DNA of 11,109 bases from positions 1-11,109 of the forward strand of contig CAMDZU010000021.1 in assembly GCA_945910715.1 (NCBI GenBank). Direction: 5' to 3'. The notes under the pieces were generated by a model. It saw nothing but the letters and a program-made list of their open reading frames with translations, ran no database searches and was not told the origin of the DNA. Origin of the DNA: an uncultured Clostridia bacterium (GTDB lineage: Bacteria; Bacillota; Clostridia; Oscillospirales; Ruminococcaceae). This document shows, piece after piece, positions 1 to 10,419 of this stretch (the stretch's first letter is position 1; each line of letters begins with the position of its first letter). Made by a program: the position numbers and the translations under genes.

Positions 1-186
1 ATAATTTGCCGAATTAGTACATATTGTATCTGCTACTGCGTCGGATTTTACCGAATTGAGCATTTTAGATATTGGAGAAAAAAGCGACATTACCCCGGCA
101 AGCAATATAGCGGTTATTGCAACCGCTATTATAACTTCAACAAGGGTGAAGCCTTTTTTTGCCTTAATTTTTCTTATGTAATTCAT
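1..186 (-). CDS. type IV prepilin-like protein, C-terminus beyond window edge
   Basis: A pilin-class subunit, of which only the first 62 codons are present; the 3' part lies beyond base 1. The N-terminus has a short basic leader followed by a class III signal with the prepilin peptidase site KKG|FTLVEV. Glu is at mature position 5, followed by a hydrophobic stretch (IIAVAITAILLAGVMSLF) that would form the N-terminal helix packing in the pilus core. The ATG at 184-186 follows a GGAG ribosome site with 8-nt spacing, 13 bp after the upstream prepilin gene ends, so it is the last visible gene of the pilus operon. PilD-type cleavage and methylation are expected from the family. Whether it is the major pilin or a minor one cannot be told from the N-terminus. 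Confidence 0.88.
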   Translation of the reverse strand, partial: MNYIRKIKAKKGFTLVEVIIAVAITAILLAGVMSLFSPISKMLNSVKSDAVADTICTNSANY

Positions 187-199
187 AATTATTTCTCCA

Positions 200-1096
200 T
201 TAAGTCACATCGTTTCTGTAAATTCCAAGTCCATTGTATTCCTTGAAATTACATGCCGGATCTGAAATATTAAAATAAGTATTGAAGTTGATATAGAAAT
301 TGGCATAGTCTGAAGACTTTATATCGAATTCAATAAATGCGTCCGTATTTACAACATTACTGTTGTCAGAACGGATAAATCTAATGCATGTTGCTTTTTC
401 GGTTGCTATACCATCAATATCGTATTCATTCGAATCCATTGTACTGTATGTCAGATATACATTGTTAGATATTTTCAGATTATATGCATTTGATGGCAGT
501 CTTAATTTTAAGAAGTTCCTGTTCTTGCTGCTTATTTGCTTTTTTGTCAGCACATAGTTATTATCGGTTATCTTTAAATAAAGCTTTATGTGATGATATT
601 CCGTTCCGTCTGAAAGCGTAGCAGTAGTGTTTTCCTTTTCTTCAATATGCAGTTGGGTCAGTCCGCTTGAGCCATATACTACTGCGGTGGCAAGAATATA
701 GCTTGGATCGTTAGGGTCGATTGTGCTGCTTGGCGCACTGTACGGCGCTTTAATAACATTTAAATTCAACCCGTTATCCATTTTGCTTCCGTCTGAATTT
801 ATAGTTGCCGAATTGACTGACGCATTATTTATTGAAAGGCTTTCCCCGTTTGAAAAGGGAATGGATACGCTTTGCGAGGTTGCGTCTTCATAATACTGTG
901 CCTTTGCAATTGCTTCCTGCTGTTCTTTAAGGTTGTTGTTCAGAGCATTATTTCTTCTCTGATCCTCGGCGGAAACTCCGATGATTCCGAAAAGAACAGC
1001 TGCCAGAATAGCAAACAATGCAAAAGCAACAATACACTCTACAAGTGTAAAGCCTTTATTGGATTTAATATTTTTTTTCAGATTAATTGTATCCAT
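200..1096 (-). CDS. type IV prepilin / pseudopilin-like protein, 298 aa
   Basis: A pilin-class subunit. It has a 15-residue basic leader, the cleavage site NKG|FTLVEC with Glu at mature position 5, and a hydrophobic helix at about residues 16-37 (CIVAFALFAILAAVLFGIIG). A polar helix segment rich in Gln, Asn and Glu follows, and then a roughly 230-residue beta-rich, Ser/Asn/Thr-rich globular domain that I cannot assign to a family. At 298 aa it is longer than most major pilins (about 150-200 aa), which fits a minor pilin or PilW/GspJ-like role. The ATG lies inside the 3' end of the upstream gene (14-bp overlap) with GGAG about 5 nt before it, suggesting translational coupling. Base composition is more AT-rich than pilC, pilMN and pilO. 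Confidence 0.87.
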   Translation of the reverse strand: MDTINLKKNIKSNKGFTLVECIVAFALFAILAAVLFGIIGVSAEDQRRNNALNNNLKEQQEAIAKAQYYEDATSQSVSIPFSNGESLSINNASVNSATINSDGSKMDNGLNLNVIKAPYSAPSSTIDPNDPSYILATAVVYGSSGLTQLHIEEKENTTATLSDGTEYHHIKLYLKITDNNYVLTKKQISSKNRNFLKLRLPSNAYNLKISNNVYLTYSTMDSNEYDIDGIATEKATCIRFIRSDNSNVVNTDAFIEFDIKSSDYANFYINFNTYFNISDPACNFKEYNGLGIYRNDVT

Positions 1097-3371
1097 AAAC
1101 TCTCCAGCCTTTCGAAGTTGTAGGTGACAGAGGAGTGCTGTGTCCTGTTGATGACATCAGATTCTGAAGAACTTCTTTTCTTTGCTTATCGGTTAATCCG
1201 GGAGTATAGTAATCATAGGGAATTGTACAGATATACTTTCTTGTTGTTTGTTCCATAGTGTAGCTTGAGGAAATTACACCGCCTACAACTGCAACTGACG
1301 CATCTGTGCCTGATGTTTCAAATTCCATATATGGTGCGTAAATAAATCCGCAGAAAGTATTTGACGCCGAAAAATCAAGATCGCTGTTTACATCAATTGA
1401 TACAAGGAATATGTTATTGTGAATATACGTATCGGTAGAGCCTGTTCCGTAATCGCCGGCAATAACAGTTGGATTTATACAGAGATTATCTCCTATATTG
1501 CTTGTAAACCCTGAAACATTGGCTGCTGTGACATACCCTACATTTCCTCTCAGCTTGTACCAGCCCTCATGACCTACAAAGTGCTGTTCCTGTGCAACAT
1601 AAGTTGTTCCCTCGGAAAGAACAAATACTACGCTTCCTCTTCCTTTGACGAGTACATTTATTTTATTGTAGGATACTGAACCGGTATTCCACTTAAAGGT
1701 ATCATCGGATCCGGGAGCAAGATAAACATAAATATTATGATATTTTGGCAAAGAGCCATCCATCACAAGGTTTCCGGATGGGTCATAATCATTAGTGTCA
1801 AAATATATCATTTGGGTATTTTTCATATTGTGATTTATCTTAGAACTTTCAATTATACAGTTCTGATAAATTGTTGCTGTATTAGGGAATCTGTTACCGT
1901 CCCATCCGCTAAAATCACTGTATTTTATATCTCCGCCGGCAATTTTAGCATCTTCGGCAGCCATTTCGGCGTCAGACATAACGCTGAAGCTTATATTGTA
2001 TCTCGGTACTCCTGCAAGGTAATCCGTATTATTATCATACAGTGCGTTTCCGTCTGCGTCTGTTCCGGTGCTGTTCAGAAACAGCTTTTTAAGATTCCAG
2101 TTCACATATACATAGTTGCCGATTTTTGAATCGATGTCATTTGTGCAGGTGCTTACCCAAGAAGCAGGTGTCTGAACATATAAAGGATCGTTGCCTGTTT
2201 CTTTTTTCACAGAGGAAATAAAGTTTTTGTAAACATCATACTTATCAACATCTGTACCGGGTACGGCAGTTGTATATTTATTTAATGCAGATTCGTCTAT
2301 GCCTAGTCTTGTAGCAAGCTCAGCCATATGCGAATAATCATTGCGAACATAAACCTTGCCGGTAACGTTCATGTTACCTGCTTCAAAAAAATGATTACTT
2401 GCAGCGCCCGCAATTATTAAATCTCCGTTTACATACACGTTTCCGCTGAAACTGGGAGTACTTAGTATAACCAAATCTCCGTTTACATACAAATCGCATC
2501 CCGTTTCAGAGCCACCGCCTCCGTAAATACAATCGCCTACAACATAAGCTGATGTTCCATCAATCATTTTATATCCAGCAGAGGCTGAACATATCCAGTT
2601 TGCACCAACTCTTAGTTTTCCACCCTCAAGGTCAAAATTGCCTTGATTTCCTGTCGTATAGAAATTGTTTCCTACGGTAATATCAAATGGAGTTGTTGCC
2701 GTATCTCCGGTAGGTACATCATCAAAGTAAAGCGTTCCTGAACAGATAATCTCCTTGTTGATATTTAGATAAGAACCGTGTGCAAGCCGTGTGTATTCGT
2801 TGTCAAGGTACATTGTTGAAGTTACTTCTGTACCGGAAATAGTAACATCCTGCGGTGTATAGCCTGTTGATGTAAAGAATCTGTTAAATTCCGCAATTGT
2901 TCCTAAGTCAAGGGTACACCAGCTTTCGGTTCTTGCCTTTTCACCGTTAAGCTCAGTTTCAACAATTATCTGAAAAACATGAAGAGTATCTGTTGGTTCG
3001 CCTTGCTTTTTTGTAATCGTAATGCCGAATTTTCCTAGATTATATGCGCTTATGGCAGCGTTGAAATCCTGAAGATCCGGTTGTGTAGCACCCATTGTTG
3101 ATGATGAATATATTGCGTCCCCAACATTTAAATCTATCATTTTTTCAACAAAGGCAGAGCCCATATTGTTTGATATGTAGCTGTCAATAACATTATTTAC
3201 GGACAGCGCAGTCTGATAGCTCTGCTTTTCCTCATAATCAGACACAATATGCTGGTAATTATTGTTTACTGTGTAATATACTGCTGCCGCTAAAACTATT
3301 AGCACCGACATAACCAGCAGTACAATAAACAGTACGCTGCCTCGTTTACTTTTCAAGTTGGAGAACTTCAT
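1083..3371 (-). CDS. large PilX/GspK-like pilus assembly protein, 762 aa
   Basis: Probably a minor pilin or tip-type subunit of the pilus. The N-terminus (residues 1-34) has a basic leader KSKRG followed directly by a hydrophobic helix (SVLFIVLLVMSVLIVLAAAV). It resembles the PilX N-terminal region and has no Glu at mature position 5, as in GspK. After a polar helix to about residue 70 the protein is almost all beta-predicted. Residues around 195-345 hold loosely repeating rungs such as YVNGDLVI and YVNGDLIIAG, suggesting a beta-solenoid. The C-terminal third has FCGFIYAPYMEFE followed by AVVGGVISS, a pattern I associate with PilX-like proteins of Gram-positives. It is several times longer than proteobacterial PilX (roughly 150-200 aa). 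The ATG follows GAGGTG by 5 nt, 35 bp after pilO. The pilin-class assignment is firm; the tip or adhesive role is inference. Confidence 0.78.
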   Translation of the reverse strand: MKFSNLKSKRGSVLFIVLLVMSVLIVLAAAVYYTVNNNYQHIVSDYEEKQSYQTALSVNNVIDSYISNNMGSAFVEKMIDLNVGDAIYSSSTMGATQPDLQDFNAAISAYNLGKFGITITKKQGEPTDTLHVFQIIVETELNGEKARTESWCTLDLGTIAEFNRFFTSTGYTPQDVTISGTEVTSTMYLDNEYTRLAHGSYLNINKEIICSGTLYFDDVPTGDTATTPFDITVGNNFYTTGNQGNFDLEGGKLRVGANWICSASAGYKMIDGTSAYVVGDCIYGGGGSETGCDLYVNGDLVILSTPSFSGNVYVNGDLIIAGAASNHFFEAGNMNVTGKVYVRNDYSHMAELATRLGIDESALNKYTTAVPGTDVDKYDVYKNFISSVKKETGNDPLYVQTPASWVSTCTNDIDSKIGNYVYVNWNLKKLFLNSTGTDADGNALYDNNTDYLAGVPRYNISFSVMSDAEMAAEDAKIAGGDIKYSDFSGWDGNRFPNTATIYQNCIIESSKINHNMKNTQMIYFDTNDYDPSGNLVMDGSLPKYHNIYVYLAPGSDDTFKWNTGSVSYNKINVLVKGRGSVVFVLSEGTTYVAQEQHFVGHEGWYKLRGNVGYVTAANVSGFTSNIGDNLCINPTVIAGDYGTGSTDTYIHNNIFLVSIDVNSDLDFSASNTFCGFIYAPYMEFETSGTDASVAVVGGVISSSYTMEQTTRKYICTIPYDYYTPGLTDKQRKEVLQNLMSSTGHSTPLSPTTSKGWRVYGYN

Positions 3372-3406
3372 AATATCACCTCAGATATTGTTCTTTGCTT
3401 ACTTAA

Positions 3407-4222
3407 TTACTTATCCAGCTCGGGAACGTCCATTGGGTTTACGCAGTAGAGAATAAGGTTTACAGGTGTGGAAACCTTTGAGTTGCCTGTGAGCTCGGTG
3501 GTCTTTTCCGTTGTGTTTGTAACGGTGATTTCGTTGCCGTTCTCGTCAATTTCTACTGCTTCTTCCGATGAAGAGGAAGTCTGCTCGTATGGGATATTGA
3601 TTGACTGAATATAGGTTGCCTGAGGCAGCTCGTGAATTGCGTCAAGGAACGCTCTGAGGTCGTCAAGTCTGCCCTCTGCGGTAAACGAAATGCTGACTGC
3701 ACCTACGACCTGGGAATACTGTGCAAGCTCCGCATACTTCATTTCGGGAGTCGGAATAATGTTTCCGTCTGCGTCAACCTCGTATTCCACTTCCTCGGAA
3801 ACGGAGGAAAGGGACTTTGCGTATTCCTTTAATGGGTAGGTTACCTCAACCTCGGTGAAGTCGGTAAGAGAAAGGGTAGAAGCGGTAAGGTTGCTGATGT
3901 TGAGTGACAGAGTGGACATTTTTGTATCCTCGAGAATCTGTCTTACAATAACGTCGGCTTCCTGGGTTTCAAGATCTTTGTAGAAATTGCCCTCGTATTC
4001 CTTTGCGTTGTCGTAGGCTTCCTTTACCTCGTCGTCAATTGTTTCCTCACGCTGGAGAGTAACGTAGATGTTATCTCTTTCAGCCTTTGCGGAATCAAGA
4101 TTTCTCTTTGAAACATCAATCTTCTGAATTGCAGGCCATGCAAACATAAGGGTGCCTGCCACAAAAATTACTATTGCAACAAATACCATAAGTATTGTTC
4201 TTTCGGTTTTACTCAGTTTCAA
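3407..4222 (-). CDS. pilO: PilO-like pilus alignment subcomplex protein, 271 aa
   Basis: An inner-membrane partner of PilN that links the cytoplasmic PilM ring and the platform to the growing pilus. It has a short cytoplasmic tail, one membrane helix (about residues 10-29), a charged coiled-coil region (about 33-100), and a C-terminal alpha/beta region. The segment around 172-212 (VGAVSISFTAEGRLDDLRAFL...IQSINI) matches the ferredoxin-like PilO core. A Ser/Glu/Thr-rich insertion at about 213-248 makes it longer than typical PilO (about 200 aa). The start is TTG at 4220-4222: AGGGAGG lies 8 nt before it, and the next Met (residue 12) is already inside the membrane helix. It overlaps the pilM-pilN reading frame by 14 bp, so coupling is likely. 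Assignment rests on architecture and position more than strong sequence identity. Confidence 0.8.
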   Translation of the reverse strand: MKLSKTERTILMVFVAIVIFVAGTLMFAWPAIQKIDVSKRNLDSAKAERDNIYVTLQREETIDDEVKEAYDNAKEYEGNFYKDLETQEADVIVRQILEDTKMSTLSLNISNLTASTLSLTDFTEVEVTYPLKEYAKSLSSVSEEVEYEVDADGNIIPTPEMKYAELAQYSQVVGAVSISFTAEGRLDDLRAFLDAIHELPQATYIQSINIPYEQTSSSSEEAVEIDENGNEITVTNTTEKTTELTGNSKVSTPVNLILYCVNPMDVPELDK

Positions 4223-5717
4223 CGCCGTTTCCTCCCTTGATTAACATTGTCAGGGAGAAGGTGTATTTCGGTTCTCCCTCTTTATCGCCGTCTTCCTTGA
4301 CCTTTGTGCCGCTGAAGCCGTTATATGCTATATTCTCGAAATAGCCCTGGTCCTTCAGCGCCTGAACGTAGGTGGCAGGCATACTGTCGTCGGTACACTC
4401 AAAGGAAACGGAAAGCGAGTATTCGCTGATTGCAACGCTGCCTGTTATTTTCATTCCTTCAACAAGGTTTTCCTCAAGCTTTTCAAGCACCTCGGTAATT
4501 GCTCTGGGCTTGTTGTCGAACAGGTCGTTTGCCTGCTGAATGCTTGAAAGGTAGCTCTGGTAGTTGGTAAGAGTGCCTATCTTGTTGTTAAGCTCGGCAA
4601 GTCTGCCCTGAAGCTCGGGGTCCTGAATTTCGGTACGGACAATCGCCGTCTGAGCGTCGATTCCTGCGGTGTACATATTTACGCCTACGGTAACGCCGCC
4701 TACCAGCACGCAACAGCCCAGCGCCAAAACGCCCAGCTTGATGAAGTATGTATTTACGCCCTTCTTTTCCTTTGCCGCAGAGGACTGGAGCAGGTTAACG
4801 TGGTCATAAACCTTGTTTACCTTGTAGAATGCGCCGATTGCGTTGGCGTACTTGGAGAAGTCAAGCTCGCACATTGTAACGATCTTGCTTGGGATCGTAA
4901 GGATATGAGCAGGAACGTTAAAGGAGGAAATTGCGTTTGTAAGAGCAATAAAGTCGTTAATAACGCCGTAGAACATAATCTCCTTGAGAGGCTTTGCGTC
5001 CTTTCTTGAGGAGGTGAACTGAATCATACGGAACAGGTTATCATAAACCGCCTGATTAACGTAATCCGGATCGTTGTTGTAATCCATCTTGTCAATCTTG
5101 ATGTAGCGGGAGAAGGTAAGCTGATTGTCCTCGTACAGGTTGATGTTGAGGAAGTCTGTGTCAATCTGCACCAGCATAAGGGGCATTGAAGCCTCAAGAC
5201 GGGAGCTGTTGAGGATAAGTCTTGTGATACAGTTGTTGGAAATGTTGATCTGTGAAAGGGAAATTCCAACGTGAGAGAACAGCTTTACATAGCCGTCGAT
5301 CATTCTCTGGGGGCAGGCGGTAGCCATAAGCTTTATCATGTGCTTGCCGTCCTCGTCGGTAGCCTCGCCCGTGATTGAGTAGGAAATGTTGTAATCGTTG
5401 GAGATACCCATATTGGCCTGAATCATAGCCTCGATTGCGGCGGAGTTGGTCAGCTTCTTGGGCTTTGGCAGCATAAGCTCCTTATACAGAATGTAGCTGG
5501 AGTTTACGCAGACGATTGCTTCCTTTTCCTTTATATTCTTGGAGTTGAGAATATCGGTGATTTCGCTGGCAACCATAGGAATATCGGCAATATAGCCGCT
5601 AACCACGCTGCCCTGGGGCAAATCTCTTGTGTCGGCGTCGATAACTCTGATCTTGTTTCCTGCAAGGACGCCGCGAACCATTTTTATCTGTTTATCGGTA
5701 ATGTCAATTGATAACAT
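4209..5717 (-). CDS. pilM: PilM-PilN fusion protein of type IV pilus assembly, 502 aa
   Basis: Residues 1 to about 300 form an actin-fold PilM domain: the phosphate-1-like strand SIDITDKQIKMV at 3-14, the phosphate-2-like strand LVQIDTDFLNINLY at 182-195, and the closing ANAIGAFYK at 291-299. Residues 306-310 (HVNLL) resemble the N-terminal NLL motif by which separate PilN proteins bind PilM. A membrane helix follows at about 324-349, then a coiled coil (about 352-400) and a ferredoxin-like domain to the end, all typical of PilN. One chain therefore covers two usually separate subunits; from memory, fused pilMN also occurs in other clostridia. The usual glycines of both PilM nucleotide-binding strands are replaced, so ATP binding may be weak. 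The ATG follows GAGGTG by 4 nt. It lies 36 bp after pilC and overlaps pilO by 14 bp. Confidence 0.88.
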   Translation of the reverse strand: MLSIDITDKQIKMVRGVLAGNKIRVIDADTRDLPQGSVVSGYIADIPMVASEITDILNSKNIKEKEAIVCVNSSYILYKELMLPKPKKLTNSAAIEAMIQANMGISNDYNISYSITGEATDEDGKHMIKLMATACPQRMIDGYVKLFSHVGISLSQINISNNCITRLILNSSRLEASMPLMLVQIDTDFLNINLYEDNQLTFSRYIKIDKMDYNNDPDYVNQAVYDNLFRMIQFTSSRKDAKPLKEIMFYGVINDFIALTNAISSFNVPAHILTIPSKIVTMCELDFSKYANAIGAFYKVNKVYDHVNLLQSSAAKEKKGVNTYFIKLGVLALGCCVLVGGVTVGVNMYTAGIDAQTAIVRTEIQDPELQGRLAELNNKIGTLTNYQSYLSSIQQANDLFDNKPRAITEVLEKLEENLVEGMKITGSVAISEYSLSVSFECTDDSMPATYVQALKDQGYFENIAYNGFSGTKVKEDGDKEGEPKYTFSLTMLIKGGNGVETE

Positions 5718-5753
5718 ATTGCACCTCTGTTTTTGAATTTATTTTTTGCGGTA

Positions 5754-6953
5754 TTAGTTTGCAACTGCGCCGAAGGAGCCGTAAAGTGCAGGGAGTACGC
5801 TGGCAACTACAAGGCCGACGCCGATACCGAGAACGATAATCAGCATAGGCTCCATAAGTCCAACCAGCTTTGAAATAGCGGTATCCGCTTCTTCGTCGTA
5901 ATAGTCGGCTGTCTTTGCAAGAATATCGTCAAGAGTACCTGATTCCTCACCGACGTAGATAATGGAGGTGAAGATACCCTCGAAGATGTTTGTCTTGGTA
6001 ACTGCGTTTGAAAGGGATTCACCCTGTTTTACGTCCTCGATTACCTGTTCCCTGAAAACCTTTTCGATATAGGAATTGCCCAGTGTGCTGACGGATTTTT
6101 CGATACACTCAACCATCTGCATACCCGAAGAGAACAGGTTGGACATCGTTCTTGCGAAACGGGAGGTGTAAATGGTCTTCATCAGCTTGCCCACCTTGGG
6201 CATTTTGCAGAGCAGCTCGTCGTATTTAAGACGGGTACTTGGAGTTTTCAGCAATATTCTGACTGCGAAAACCAGCGCAACAACGATTGCGATACAGATA
6301 TACCATTTTTCCTTGAGGAAGTCGGAGAAGTCCATCATAGCCTTTGTAAGAGCCGGAATTTCGTCAGGCGAACTGAACATATCCATAAACATAGGCAGAA
6401 TGAAGGTAAACAGCGCAAGCATAATAATCAGCATCATTACAAGAAGAACGATAGGATAGGTCATTGAGCTCTTGATTTTGTTGTTGATTTTGTTTTCCTT
6501 TGCATAATGGTCGGAAACACGCTGCATAATCATATCCAGATTACCTGAAGCCTCGCCCGCAGCCACCATGCTCACGAAGAACATAGGGAAAACGCCTTTT
6601 TTTGAGGCAACCGACTCGGAGAAGGAACGGCCTCTCTGAACGTCCTCGTAAATCTCCAGCAGAACTGCCTTCATCTTTTTATCCTCCTGCTGTGTGTAGA
6701 GGATATTGAGGGCTCTTACAATGCTGATACCGGAAGTAAGCATTGAGCTGAGCTGTCTGCACAGGAATGCAAGATCCTTTGTCTTGAACTTGTATCTTGC
6801 TTTTTCCTCCTTTTCCACAAGCTCCGTATAGGAAGTGCAGAAAAGGTTTTTTTCCTTCAGCTTTTCAATAAGCTGCTGGTAGTCGTCGGCTGTTTCTTTG
6901 CCTCGGATGGTTCTGCCGTTGATGTCGCTGGCAACGTAGGTAAATGAAGCCAC
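5754..6953 (-). CDS. pilC: PilC/GspF-type inner-membrane platform protein, 399 aa
   Basis: The polytopic platform on which the assembly ATPase acts during pilus extension and retraction. It has the usual family length (about 400 aa). Counting from the GTG start, it begins with a MASFTYVASDINGRTIRG-type N-terminal motif. Two T2SF domains follow (about 60-190 and 260-388), each with the family signature GExSG: GEASGNLDMIM at 133-143 and GEESGTLDDIL at 336-346. Membrane helices lie at about 167-187, 217-235 and 367-389. The reading frame is open to a TTG at 6960-6962, but GTGGGGG sits immediately before that TTG. The GTG at 6951-6953, about 9 nt after GGGGG, is the better start and gives the canonical N-terminus. 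It is the first gene of the pilus operon; the promoter is at 7017-7045. No pilB or pilT lies next to it here. Confidence 0.93.
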   Translation of the reverse strand: MASFTYVASDINGRTIRGKETADDYQQLIEKLKEKNLFCTSYTELVEKEEKARYKFKTKDLAFLCRQLSSMLTSGISIVRALNILYTQQEDKKMKAVLLEIYEDVQRGRSFSESVASKKGVFPMFFVSMVAAGEASGNLDMIMQRVSDHYAKENKINNKIKSSMTYPIVLLVMMLIIMLALFTFILPMFMDMFSSPDEIPALTKAMMDFSDFLKEKWYICIAIVVALVFAVRILLKTPSTRLKYDELLCKMPKVGKLMKTIYTSRFARTMSNLFSSGMQMVECIEKSVSTLGNSYIEKVFREQVIEDVKQGESLSNAVTKTNIFEGIFTSIIYVGEESGTLDDILAKTADYYDEEADTAISKLVGLMEPMLIIVLGIGVGLVVASVLPALYGSFGAVAN

Positions 6954-7226
6954 TAATGTCAACCCCCACTCTTTTAACTAAATTCTATATATTTATATAT
7001 ACATAGATATACAATTATTATATCATACTGCCCTTGTCAATTCAATTACTGTCTGTGACAAACATTAAGGTAATTTTTTGTGCAAAATTATCCAATGGGT
7101 TACAATTTACCGTTTCACTGTTTCGCAACATTGACAAATCATAAAGCAGAAAACGGCTTTGTTTCGCAGTTATTTTGAAACCCGTGAGTAAAATTTTACC
7201 ATAAGTTTTATTTCAGCCATAAAAAT
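6954..7226. other. intergenic region upstream of pilC
   Basis: An AT-rich region without a convincing gene. It holds the pilC promoter (7017-7045), its AT-rich leader (about 6954-7010), and upstream sequence with a 9-nt direct repeat TGTTTCGCA at 7119-7127 and 7160-7168, spaced 41 bp start to start (about four helical turns). A TTGACA on the plus strand at 7131 has no -10 partner. I see nothing else in it. Confidence 0.6.
7017..7045 (-). promoter_or_regulatory. sigma-A-type promoter of the pilus operon
   Basis: On the minus strand TTGAAT (7040-7045) is followed by a 17-nt spacer and a perfect TATAAT (7017-7022), preceded by TGA, giving an extended -10. Transcription should start near 7010, about 57 nt before the pilC GTG. 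The 12-nt core TATGATATAATA is identical in the lysC promoter, which probably reflects consensus rather than co-regulation. Confidence 0.75.
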
Positions 7227-7262: not shown

Positions 7263-7757
7263 CTATATACTTTTCACATTTTTATTCACATAATCCACAA
7301 ACTGAATGTTAAATCCGTTTGTTTCGGCAATTTCCGACATTCCGGCAATTTCCCAGTCCTTATCCTCGTCAAGATTGGGGAAAAAGGTATCCGCCTCAAA
7401 ATCGTGGAGCACTCTTGTAACCACCGCCTTTTCGCAGTAGGGCAGCAGCTCCCTGTAAACCATTCCGCCGCCGCAGACGTAAATTTCCTCATCACATTCC
7501 TTTGCGAAGGCGAGAAAAGCGTCAATGCTTTCAAAGCACCTTACCTCGGGGTAAAGGCTCGGCTTTGAGGTTATAACAAGGTTTACCCTGTCGGGGAGAG
7601 GACGTCTGGGGAAGCTCATATAGGTTCTGCTGCCCATAACGATTGTGTTTCCCGTGGTTATCTCACGGAATCTTTTCATATCCTCGGGAAGTCTTGCAAG
7701 GAGGTTGTTGTCCTTTCCTATTCCCCATTTATTGTCGGCGGCAACTATGATTTTCAT
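7263..7757 (-). CDS. folA: dihydrofolate reductase, 164 aa
   Basis: A cytoplasmic enzyme that reduces dihydrofolate to tetrahydrofolate with NADPH and is the target of trimethoprim-type antifolates. Length and motifs are standard for bacterial type I DHFR. They are WGIGKDN (11-17), LPEDMKRF (23-30, with the catalytic acid Asp26), the NADPH-site MGSRTYMSF (41-49), PLPDR (53-57, Arg57 binding the glutamate tail of folate), the CGGG nucleotide loop (95-98), and TRV (114-116, equivalent to E. coli Thr113). The ATG follows AAAGGA by 6 nt. The gene lies downstream of thyA in the same direction, the usual pairing, because ThyA consumes methylene-tetrahydrofolate and releases dihydrofolate. The two genes are separated by an unusual palindromic element (7774-7934). 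A strong terminator follows. Confidence 0.96.
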   Translation of the reverse strand: MKIIVAADNKWGIGKDNNLLARLPEDMKRFREITTGNTIVMGSRTYMSFPRRPLPDRVNLVITSKPSLYPEVRCFESIDAFLAFAKECDEEIYVCGGGMVYRELLPYCEKAVVTRVLHDFEADTFFPNLDEDKDWEIAGMSEIAETNGFNIQFVDYVNKNVKSI

Positions 7758-7773
7758 TGTGAGTCCTTTCTGA

Positions 7774-7934
7774 GATACTAATAACCGATTGTTCTATGGA
7801 TAAAGACGGCGGGTAGAATACGCCCAATCAAGGAAAACGACCGCAGGCAGGCTGGTGCCTGTCAAGGTTGTTTGACGCAGAGTGGACGTATTATAACCGT
7901 TGTATTTTCCATAGGTTAATTGGTTATTAGTATC
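7774..7934 (+). repeat. 161-bp palindromic element with nested stems, possible MITE or structured RNA
   Basis: The ends are inverted: GATACTAATAACC (7774-7786) is the exact complement of 7922-7934, and after a 7-nt non-pairing step CTATGGA (7794-7800) pairs with 7908-7914. Further stems nest inside: 7805-7809 with 7897-7901, 7814-7822 with 7887-7895 (one mismatch), AAACGAC 7835-7841 with 7867-7873, and CAGGCA 7844-7849 with 7856-7861. Two pairs are G-U only if the plus strand is the RNA; on the minus strand they become A-C mismatches. This favours an RNA, if any, running opposite to thyA and folA. There is no reading frame of note and no clear target-site duplication. The right end overlaps the thyA stop codon. 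A non-autonomous mobile element and a structured RNA are both possible. Confidence 0.6.
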
Positions 7935-8760
7935 AAATGGCTACGGGAATTTTCTCGCTGAATTCGTGGTACTTGTAATTTTCAAGGGTAAAGCTGTTTT
8001 TGGTGAACTTGTAGAAGTCGGTTATATCCTCCACTACCATTTTCGGCGCAGGGTAAGGCTCTTTTTCAATAAGCCGCTTAACGATTTCAACGTGTCTGTC
8101 GTAAATATGAGCGTCCGCAACAACGTGGACAAGTTCTCCTGCCTCAAGTCCGCTTGCCTTGGCAAACATAATCAGCAATGCGGCATACTGGCACACATTC
8201 CAGTTGTTTGCGGTAAGCATATCCTGGGAGCGCTGGTTGAGTATGGCGTTGAGCTTGTTGCCCGTTACGTTGAAGGTCATTGAGTAGGCGCAGGGGGCAA
8301 GACCCATTTCCGACAAATCGTGATGGTTGTAGGTATTGGTCATAATGCGGCGGCTGGCAGGATTGTTCTTTAAATCGTACAGCACACGGTCAACCTGGTC
8401 GAACATTCCCTCGGGGTACTTGTGCTTTACTCCAAGCTGATAGCCGTAAGCCTTGCCTATGGTATGGTTTTCGTCCGCCCATGCGTCCCATATATGGGTG
8501 GAAAGTTTGCGGACGTCGTTGGACTTCTGCTGATAAATCCACAGTATTTCCTCAATTGCGGAGCGGTAATAAACTCTGCGGAGGGTCATTACGGGAAATT
8601 CCTCCTGCAAATTGTAGCGGTTTATCATACCGAACTTTTTTACCGTATGAGCAGGAGTGCCGTCCTCCCATTTTGGCCTTACGTTAAGGTCGGTGTCCCA
8701 TACGCCGTTTTCGATTATATCTCTGCAATTCTCAATAAAAAGCTTGTCAGCAATACTCAT
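7933..8760 (-). CDS. thyA: thymidylate synthase ThyA, 275 aa
   Basis: Methylates dUMP to dTMP using 5,10-methylene-tetrahydrofolate, releasing dihydrofolate for FolA. It has the classic ThyA fold and motifs: the RRIMTN phosphate-binding arginines (about 137-142), the catalytic Cys in LAPCAYSMTF (Cys157), NQRSQDMLTANNWNV (about 175-189), and HIYDRH (218-223). The C-terminus PVAI is the conserved closing residue set. I chose the ATG at 8758-8760 (MSIADKLF) because AAAGGA lies 6 nt before it and the N-terminus then resembles clostridial homologues. The ATG at 8773-8775, 15 bp upstream with AGGGG before it, is an alternative giving 280 aa. The TGA stop is contributed by the palindromic element that follows. 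No promoter is visible in the short gap after lysC, so transcription probably comes from lysC. Confidence 0.95.
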   Translation of the reverse strand: MSIADKLFIENCRDIIENGVWDTDLNVRPKWEDGTPAHTVKKFGMINRYNLQEEFPVMTLRRVYYRSAIEEILWIYQQKSNDVRKLSTHIWDAWADENHTIGKAYGYQLGVKHKYPEGMFDQVDRVLYDLKNNPASRRIMTNTYNHHDLSEMGLAPCAYSMTFNVTGNKLNAILNQRSQDMLTANNWNVCQYAALLIMFAKASGLEAGELVHVVADAHIYDRHVEIVKRLIEKEPYPAPKMVVEDITDFYKFTKNSFTLENYKYHEFSEKIPVAI

Positions 8761-8790
8761 GGCTTTTCCTTTCATAGGTTTCCCCTGAAA

Positions 8791-8832
8791 ACAGCAGTCC
8801 GAAAGAGAGCGGCTCCCTTTCGGACTCGGTTT
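8791..8832 (-). terminator. hairpin between lysC and thyA, terminator-like
   Basis: AGTCCGAAAG (8796-8805) pairs with CTTTCGGACT (8817-8826). An inner GAG/CTC pair surrounds a CGG loop, and outer AAAAC/GTTTT flanks can extend the stem. On the minus strand it begins 23 bp after the lysC stop and is followed by GCTGTTTTC, a short U-tract. It may act as a partial terminator, attenuator or processing site before thyA. The weak U-tract and the lack of room for a thyA promoter make full termination uncertain. Confidence 0.6.
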
Positions 8833-8849
8833 TGTCTTTGTCTTACATC

Positions 8850-10163
8850 TTATTCGGATAAAATAAACATATCGTAGATAACTTCAATTGCCTTTTCAAA
8901 GTCATCTTCCTTTATACCGATAATAATGTTAAGCTCGCTGGAGCCCTGGTCAATCATACGGATATTTATGTTTGCGTGGGAAAGAGCGGCGAAAATTCTT
9001 GTAGCAGTACCTTTCTTCGCCTTCATTCCCCGTCCCACAACGGCAATCATTGCAATTCCGTCCTCAACCTCCATGTGATTAGGGTGGCATATTTCGGAGA
9101 TACGCTCAATGAACCTGGGATGAGCCTTTAAGCTGTCTGTGTTTACAACTATGCTCATTGTATCAATGCCCGTGGGGATATGCTCAAAAGCAATGTCCTC
9201 GTTTTCCATAAGGGTAAGGATACGTCTGAGGAAGCCTATCTCGTTATTCATTTCGTCCTTTTCAAGGTTGATAACGGAGAAGTGCTTCTTGCCTGCAATG
9301 CCCGTGATGATGTGCTTTGTATCTGCGGGAGCGTCGGGGACAATCATTGTGCCCTTTGCCTCGGGAGCGTTTGTGTTTCTGATGTTAATCGGGATTCTTG
9401 CGTTTCTTACGGGGAAAATTGCGTCCTCGTGAAGAACGGTTGCGCCCATATATGAAAGCTCACGAAGCTCCTTGTAGGTAATTGTTTCAATTGTAAGAGG
9501 GTCCTTTACAATTCTCGGGTCGGCAACAAGGAAGCCCGAAACGTCCGTCCAGTTTTCGTAAAGGTCAGCGTTGATTGCTCTTGCAACAACGGAGCCTGTA
9601 AAGTCGGAGCCGCCTCTTGAAAAGGTCTTGATTGTGCCGTCGGGCTTTGAGCCGTAGAAGCCGGGAATTACTGCGCAGGGATAACCCTCAAGTATTGACG
9701 CAAGGTTAGCGTCCGTAAGGTCTGCGTCAAACTCGCCCTTCTGATTGAAGGAAATGCCCTTTGCTGCGTCAATCCACGCAAAGCCGAGGTAATTTGCAAG
9801 AATAATGCTGTTGAGGTATTCGCCTCTGCTTGCGGCATAGTCCTTGCCTGAACGCCTTTTGAAGTTGTCCATTATAGTTTCATATTCCGTATCAAGGGAC
9901 ATTGCAAGACCAAGGTCGGAAATAATTCCGTTAAATCTTTCCGCAATGGGTGAAAAGGAAACATAAGCGTCCTTGCCCTCGCCAACCTCGTCATAGCACT
10001 TGTACAGCATATCGGTTACCTTGATATCGTCGCTGTAACGCTTTCCGGGAGCAGAGGGAACTACATAGCAGCGCTCCTTATCCGCCTTGATAATAGCGGC
10101 AACCTTGCGGAACTGATTAGCGTCAGCAAGTGAGGAGCCGCCGAATTTTACAACCTTTGCCAT
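8850..10163 (-). CDS. lysC: aspartate kinase, 437 aa
   Basis: Phosphorylates L-aspartate, the first step to lysine (and diaminopimelate for the cell wall), threonine and methionine. The catalytic amino-acid-kinase domain starts with VVKFGGSSLADA (4-15) and contains SRGGSDFTGS (182-191), the family's nucleotide/aspartate motif. Two C-terminal ACT domains follow (about 294-363 and 370-437; the second contains VVGRGMKAKKG and NIRMIDQGSSELNIII). This implies feedback control by an amino acid, commonly lysine in such enzymes. There is no fused homoserine dehydrogenase. The frame is open to ATGs at 10187 and 10175. I chose the ATG at 10161-10163 because it gives the standard MAKVVKFGGSS start and has GGTGG 5 nt before it. 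The leader can fold to bury exactly this start. It is first in the lysC-thyA-folA cluster. Confidence 0.94.
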   Translation of the reverse strand: MAKVVKFGGSSLADANQFRKVAAIIKADKERCYVVPSAPGKRYSDDIKVTDMLYKCYDEVGEGKDAYVSFSPIAERFNGIISDLGLAMSLDTEYETIMDNFKRRSGKDYAASRGEYLNSIILANYLGFAWIDAAKGISFNQKGEFDADLTDANLASILEGYPCAVIPGFYGSKPDGTIKTFSRGGSDFTGSVVARAINADLYENWTDVSGFLVADPRIVKDPLTIETITYKELRELSYMGATVLHEDAIFPVRNARIPINIRNTNAPEAKGTMIVPDAPADTKHIITGIAGKKHFSVINLEKDEMNNEIGFLRRILTLMENEDIAFEHIPTGIDTMSIVVNTDSLKAHPRFIERISEICHPNHMEVEDGIAMIAVVGRGMKAKKGTATRIFAALSHANINIRMIDQGSSELNIIIGIKEDDFEKAIEVIYDMFILSE

Positions 10164-10265
10164 AAAAACCACCATTTCTCCGTGCATACAGAACCGTTTC
10201 CCCGCACGGAGGGGCTACGGCGGTTTTTATGAATTAACGCAATATCACATAAAAACCTGAAATAC
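10161..10265 (-). promoter_or_regulatory. lysC leader with mutually exclusive hairpins over the ribosome site
   Basis: In the minus-strand transcript the order is GGUUUUUAUG (10257-10248), CAUAAAAACC (10231-10222), GGUUUUUAUG (10170-10161). The middle copy pairs perfectly (10 bp, 16-nt loop) with the first. Alternatively, extended to CAUAAAAACCGCC (10231-10219), it pairs over 13 bp (one G-U) with GGUGGUUUUUAUG (10173-10161), which is the lysC ribosome site plus start codon. Inside the second fold CUCCGUGC (10211-10204) pairs with GCACGGAG (10185-10178). That stem competes with a small CCCC/GGGG hairpin (10214-10211 with 10203-10200). This is switch-like architecture for translational control. 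It is not a lysine riboswitch by size or sequence, and the signal sensed is unknown. A DNA operator role for the repeats is the alternative. Confidence 0.6.
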
Positions 10266-10271
10266 TTTACT

Positions 10272-10300
10272 ATTATATCATAGGTTGCCGATAAAATCAA
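10272..10300 (-). promoter_or_regulatory. sigma-A-type promoter of lysC
   Basis: On the minus strand TTGATT (10295-10300), a 17-nt spacer, and TATAAT (10272-10277) preceded by TGA (extended -10). Transcription should start near 10263-10266, just before the first strand of the leader hairpin, leaving a leader of about 100 nt before the lysC ATG. Confidence 0.75.
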
Positions 10301-10419
10301 GTAAAATATGCTATTCGGAAAATATAAAAAAGGAATATGCTGAAAGCCGTTTTTATGGTGAAATCGTCCCATTTTGTCCGCTTTTATCAAAAAAAATTAT
10401 ATATATCATTGATTAAAGG
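10301..10419. other. spacer between divergent lysC and sensor-gene promoters
   Basis: An AT-rich gap separating the two -35 boxes. It includes a further copy of the leader repeat core (GTTTTTATGG on the plus strand at 10349-10358) and a poly-A/AT run at 10390-10406. There is no gene. It could hold regulator sites acting on either promoter, but none is recognisable. Confidence 0.5.

Follow-up and report, generated by a model that had tools for sequence, protein, structure and literature searches.

The pathway leading to lysine, threonine, methionine and diaminopimelate begins with the lysC step. Lysine riboswitches (RF00168), which are cis leader RNAs at aspartate-pathway genes, adopt exclusive folds with a terminator or a buried ribosome site, and in the trp and erm attenuators three alternating segments are present, of which segment 2 pairs with segment 1 or segment 3. 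In RNA thermometers, a hairpin lies over the ribosome site and AUG. For the B. subtilis vmlR leader, PMC9226507 describes a three-codon ORF in the first stem, a terminator and a separate hairpin that sequesters the SD sequence. 'Concerted transcriptional and translational attenuation' by terminators that sequester the ribosome site was proposed in PMC2965389 (2010), which states that such bifunctional hairpins had until then lacked any experimentally demonstrated case.

The lysC leader analyzed here lies on the minus strand of a window of 11,109 nt (the whole stretch of DNA that was analyzed). Like the lysine riboswitch, it is a candidate cis leader RNA at an aspartate-pathway gene, but the 182-position model of that family was without a match in it. 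As in the three-segment attenuators (trp, erm, vmlR), copy 2 of a short repeat can pair with copy 1 (fold A) or copy 3 (fold B). In comparison with vmlR as described in PMC9226507, no sensing leader peptide is present, only AUG-UGA, and a single hairpin would provide both the terminator and the burial of the start. In this respect fold B, as a possible terminator and predicted start-site lock, resembles the bifunctional hairpins proposed in PMC2965389. A hairpin over ribosome site and AUG is shared with RNA thermometers, but in the lysC leader this hairpin was predicted not to open at temperatures up to 60°C (AUG unpaired with a probability of ≤0.024), and a thermometer was rejected. The predicted folds contain exclusive stems, one of them over the lysC start site, and stems of this kind over a start site or a terminator mark an attenuator or two-state leader. 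Our preferred reading, held tentatively, is that this is a lineage-specific attenuator-type leader RNA of lysC. Features are listed in Table 1.

Table 1. Positions of lysC, its predicted promoter, the repeat copies and the predicted folds, in window coordinates
Feature	Position	Strand	RNA nt	Remarks
lysC, aspartokinase (AA_kinase and ACT domains)	8850..10163	minus		Pfam PF00696, E 2.9e-33; PF22468, E 2.6e-26
lysC start AUG	10163-10161	minus		same position indicated by relatives' leaders and sister protein P0001
Predicted promoter TTGATT-17-TATAAT, TG before -10	10272..10300	minus		consensus scan, 10/12 matches
Copy 1, GGTTTTTATG as DNA, GGUUUUUAUG as RNA	10257-10248	minus	9-18	5′ arm of fold A stem P1
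Start-stop minimal ORF, AUG-UGA	10245-10250	minus		AUG in copy 1
Copy 2, CATAAAAACC as DNA, CAUAAAAACC as RNA	10231-10222	minus	35-44	partner of copy 1 (fold A) or copy 3 (fold B)
Copy 3, GGTTTTTATG	10170-10161	minus		contains lysC AUG
Copy 3 region	10161..10173	minus		candidate ribosome site GGUGG (10173-10169), then U5 and lysC AUG; basis, sequence
Fourth copy, CATAAAAACG, one mismatch	10348-10357	minus		5′ of -35, outside putative transcript
Fold A stem P1, copy 1/copy 2, 10 bp	10248-10257 with 10222-10231	minus		predicted
Fold A second hairpin, GCCGU-AG-CCCC-UCCGUGC-GGGG-AA-ACGGU	10193..10221	minus	45-73	predicted, -14.5 kcal/mol
Fold B inner stem, CUCCGUGC/GCACGGAG	10178..10211	minus	55-63/80-88	predicted; 3′ arm holds possible ribosome site GGAG
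Fold B hairpin	10160..10232	minus		predicted MFE fold; 16-bp outer stem (10232-10217 with 10175-10160, 3 G-U) over GGUGG and AUG

Three alternating copies before lysC

A reading made from the letters of the DNA (hereafter the sequence-only reading) had reported three alternating 10-mers before lysC, and these were found on the minus strand where it had placed them. Copies 1 and 2 were complementary at 10/10 positions, and copies 2 and 3 at 12/13 with one G-U; the latter pairing had been given as 13 positions with one G-U, which is correct as far as it goes, but the predicted stem is longer, at 16 bp with three G-U. Copy 1 with the bases that follow it reads AGG-UUUUU-AUG-UGA, with the AUG at about nt 16 of the putative transcript, AGG five bases 5′ of it and UGA directly after it. 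When the mismatched fourth copy was included, the spacings among the four CATAAAAAC copies were 61, 26 and 100 bp, and their orientation was mixed. Transcription probably starts near 10265, giving a leader of ~105 nt, because of the predicted promoter at 10300-10272; promoter-like sites in the region numbered 3, versus 1.5 expected in shuffles.

For comparison with other lysC leaders, 141 loci were scanned and 139 yielded a leader (L038 and L129, both from the end of one contig, yielded none). These gave 110 leaders distinct by their last 60 nt, and the comparison set consisted of the 108 besides the window with 105 upstream bases; six further lysC leaders of the genus were inspected by eye only. 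Starts of the own genome were taken from 40 contigs and the window, with start choice by a simple SD rule, and comprised 296 rows for start burial (one of which is lysC at another start) and 295, with lysC left out, for alternating triples. The source assembly is a draft, 68% complete, and the leader is known from one sequence.

Alternating triples of 8, 9 or 10 nt that touched the start site were found in 0/20,000 dinucleotide shuffles at each length. At 8-10 nt, none occurred at the 295 other starts of the own genome or in the 108 other lysC leaders, and at 7 nt one occurred among the 295 own-genome starts. An inverted pair of 10 nt alone was commoner (1/295 starts and 47/20,000 shuffles). 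The three-copy arrangement is real and is not a product of chance. The 121-nt stretch around the leader had a folding z-score of -3.49, with 0/200 shuffles as good. In the 1.72-Mb assembly the 10-mer was counted 22 times, three of them within 97 bp in the lysC leader; the 19 other copies were viewed in context, and four belonged to a dispersed repeat, many fell within open frames and several were at hairpins. The dispersed repeat was present on four contigs of the own genome (L162, L189, L190, L198) as TTTGTGGTTTTTATGTTGGT followed by GGGGGCTACTCGCCCCC-like palindromes. The 220-bp region had no other copy in the own genome (assembly 68% complete), and a mobile element was rejected on the same search together with the lack of a plasmid or phage match.

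Predicted folds and access to the lysC start

Folding, permutation and findpath were each consistent, as predictions, with the proposal that the leader has two mutually exclusive folds. The inner competing stems also proposed were located, CUCCGUGC/GCACGGAG as an exact pair and CCCC/GGGG in the rival fold. When the growing RNA was folded in steps of 8 nt, fold A was obtained at 46-94 nt and fold B from 102 nt on. Fold B was below fold A in ensemble energy by 7.3 kcal/mol at 105 nt and by 3.3-5.0 kcal/mol at 115-166 nt. The A-to-B barrier (findpath, lowest path found) was 10.3-12.4 kcal/mol at 106-126 nt, which corresponds, with an assumed prefactor, to a conversion time of seconds to minutes. 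UCCGUGC, the seven-base loop of the second fold A hairpin, is exactly complementary to GCACGGA just 3′ of it, and their pairing is a possible toehold for the A-to-B change.

The strength of fold A was examined by permuting the pairs and loops of fold B such that fold B was kept. The fold A energy was matched in 18/5,000 permutations for nt 1-78, in 24/5,000 for nt 44-78, and in 139/5,000 when the inner part alone was permuted. Fold A thus looks stronger than expected given fold B, with the inner-only permutation as modest evidence. All of these results are computational, from the parts of the leader and its two exclusive folds to their departure from chance and the place of fold B as energy minimum.

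In fold B, the AUG and GGUGG (a non-canonical ribosome site) had a predicted unpaired probability of ≤0.005 at 37°C, in keeping with the earlier suggestion that one fold hides both. The longest start-covering stem was 16 bp here versus ≤12 in the 108 other lysC leaders, and it was <16 bp in the other own-genome rows, apart from one equal row that represents lysC with a different start. Opening of the start site was computed to cost 10.6 kcal/mol, a value reached by 23/296 own-genome rows (including the lysC row with the different start) and by 1/108 other lysC leaders.

With both fold A hairpins kept, opening of the start (nt 89-107) cost 2.6-4.1 kcal/mol at 105-115 nt and 7.7-8.7 at 126-166 nt; with P1 alone kept, 2.8-7.9 and 6.7-8.1 kcal/mol, respectively. 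From fold B, the cost was 10.0-12.1 kcal/mol at 105-115 nt and 10.0-12.9 over all lengths tested. The higher cost in fold A at 126-166 nt reflects pairing of the start region with the early part of the coding sequence; at 94 nt, weak pairs already involve part of GGAG. Since start opening in the 126-166 nt RNA is only about 2-5 kcal/mol cheaper from fold A than from fold B, fold A is not clearly open there. The sequence-only reading had held that one fold frees translation; the cheap opening at 105-115 nt agrees with this, but the values at 126-166 nt make the effect weaker than was claimed. By prediction fold A is the easier state for start entry, and its advantage is clear only as long as the transcript contains little of the coding sequence.

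The terminator-like character of fold B is an addition to what the sequence-only reading observed. Its stem begins after AAAAA and ends in GGUGG, which is followed by UUUUUAUG; the hairpin is large and interrupted, and the U-tract after it consists of five U only. Hairpins after genes of the own genome were found for 91/301 genes, 59 of them with a T-rich tail, among which a T run of 5 was commonest (18/59), and many were of the same style as fold B (AAACCGC...GCGGTTTTT). The d-score of fold B, from a d'Aubenton-Carafa-type formula, was 13.7, and of the seven hairpins used for comparison (some with shortened tails) six scored higher. No terminator was found by a scan of the region limited to loops of 3-8. 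Fold B might thus combine two roles in one hairpin, ending transcription and hiding the lysC start.

Homologous leaders and lysC control in relatives

By exact search, the copy 2/copy 3 and copy 1/copy 2 pairs were found in 0/70 other genomes of the genus, leaving the own genome as the only one among 71. A covariance model built from this single leader and run with stricter filters against the 71 genus genomes (E up to 0.1) returned only the leader itself and a match in G002 (E 0.021), which was rejected as a homologous leader since it is an ordinary terminator; against 247 family genomes (E up to 0.01, stricter filters) it returned itself only, with none in the 246 others. The lysine riboswitch model RF00168 had no match in the window (E up to 1) or the leader (E up to 10), which bears out the earlier statement that no lysine riboswitch precedes this lysC, and none was found in the own 68%-complete genome. 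Rfam gave no minus-strand family on the leader (T-box or other cis-regulatory); the sole match was a plus-strand pntA sRNA below threshold (22 bits vs 54). Twenty lysC-bearing loci of relatives gave one tRNA only at Rfam gathering thresholds. No aptamer-like domain was recognisable in the leader, and on reading it no leader peptide with regulatory codons was found, only the AUG-UGA in copy 1. A literature search by title or abstract opening returned no paper on this lysC leader.

Among 61 distinct lysC leaders of the genus (window included), most had an ordinary AAGAAAGGA-like site shortly 5′ of the start and no such repeats, and a few differed, for example in TTG starts with a GGAGG site. Because most relatives have the ordinary site, the leader is no general lysC control of Clostridia. 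On the lysC tree, the window lysC and P0001 formed a separate lineage. Nine leaders, mostly of one subclade, had a small hairpin just 5′ of the AAGAAAGG site, with a sequence that varied among them (L007, L008, L010, L012, L015, L017, L020, L027, L029); those other than L007 and L008 lay outside the window's lineage on the tree. The lysine riboswitch was not seen in six of these nine genomes (G024, G036, G063, G064, G065, G069) and was present in three (G021, G026, G034). A genus-wide hairpin before the SD was rejected, the mean z being -0.04 for the 61 genus leaders (window included) vs -0.27 for 120 sampled own-genome genes, with no enrichment. Upstream of lysC in L026 (G050), several long GC-rich palindromes were observed, possibly inserted repeats.

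The lysine riboswitch exceeded the family cut-off in 38/71 genus genomes, with 4/14 control genomes also positive. It was on a different contig from lysC in 36/38 genomes; in G001, a single contig, the two were 1.2 Mb apart, and in G062 the riboswitch was present and no lysC was seen. In the three loci opened (L205, L206, L207), the next gene after the riboswitch was asd (NCBIfam). Most of the relatives compared start lysC from a plain site, and in many of them a lysine riboswitch is located elsewhere, before asd in those three loci. In the own 68%-complete assembly asd was not found, in a search run without a positive control.

Readings of the leader and the genes around it

Under the attenuator-type reading, copy 1 would pair with copy 2 when RNA polymerase leaves the promoter and the next segment would fold on itself, giving fold A; copy 2 would be kept off the lysC start, and ribosomes would reach the start at modest cost. 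If fold A were unformed, opened or given time, copy 2 would pair with copy 3 in fold B, the ribosome site and AUG would be hidden, and transcription may end at the start codon because the fold B stem runs into UUUUU. We infer that both folds are used in cells, with B as the off and A as the on state and with possible termination; the obvious guess for the choosing signal is an aspartate-pathway product. The strongest objections are that the leader is one sequence from one draft genome and that in longer RNA the start is not evidently open in fold A.

Fold B may act alone as a passive hairpin that sets a low constant lysC translation, the copy 1/copy 2 pairing being accidental and without switching. 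We consider this unlikely, with a chance nonetheless worth weighing: fold B is the energy minimum at the tested lengths from 102 nt on, the leader has no recognisable ligand-binding domain, the start is not clearly opened by fold A in longer RNA and no homologous leader was found to indicate selection for fold A, but a perfect third copy would be unexpected (0/20,000 shuffles) and a fold A this good is unusual when fold B is kept (18/5,000). Improbable in our judgment is a recent and functionless sequence accident, whether from template switching that left a local inverted duplication or from an error of assembly. Template switching makes near-perfect inverted copies, which the copies here match, and the arrangement was found in a single draft assembly and is missing from the leaders of relatives; however, three copies and a separate inner stem require more than one event, the second fold A hairpin is not derived from the copies, the lysC-thyA order is seen in relatives, and the lysC frame is intact with a 95% identical sister protein (P0001).

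A low probability is likewise assigned to control mainly by transcription attenuation, in which fold B would be an intrinsic terminator ~100 nt after the promoter, fold A the antiterminator and burial of the start a by-product. The A-tract, GC stem and U5 as in the post-gene hairpins of the own genome, the d-score, the terminator in G002 as the leader model's sole other genus match and the lack of any likely same-strand gene upstream in the remaining 0.9 kb of the contig argue for it; the size and interruptions of the hairpin, the short U-tract, the negative terminator scan, a d-score below most of the hairpins compared and the need for fold A to be displaced in time argue against it. At the DNA level, the four CATAAAAAC copies could be operator sites of a DNA-binding regulator in a divergent promoter region. 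The fourth copy does lie outside the putative transcript, and divergent promoter-like sites are found in the region together with a divergent PAS-domain gene, the upstream neighbour of lysC, but the spacings and mixed orientation were judged unusual for an operator layout and the contexts of the 19 other genomic copies speak against such sites; we regard this reading as very improbable. Equally far-fetched at present is that copy 1 mimics the lysC start and serves as a decoy for ribosomes. A ribosome settled there would block the pairing of copy 1 with copy 2, and copy 2 would then be available to bury the real start and perhaps to end transcription. If so, lysC would be lowered when free ribosomes are plentiful, or by whatever binds the lysC start, and one hairpin would be both terminator and start-site lock.

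If the attenuator-type leader is an invention of one lineage, its 105 nt would show two-state control arising from three short start-site copies, without an inherited aptamer. It could also serve as a test case for a terminator that hides a start codon.

On the minus strand lysC, thyA and folA are consecutive (7263-10163), and the folate and thymidylate genes may also be under control of the lysC leader. thyA was found in 18/58 relatives' loci searched, mostly right behind lysC (duplicates kept; many of the loci stop shortly after lysC), and a folA relative adjoined thyA in two relatives' loci; L054 and L057 had a similar order with distant folA relatives. A chimeric contig is argued against because the lysC-thyA order is common to relatives. 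Further along the same strand (1-6962), a type IV pilus or type II secretion-like cluster was observed, with PilM_2 and T2SSF identified by Pfam and prepilin-like N-termini by eye.
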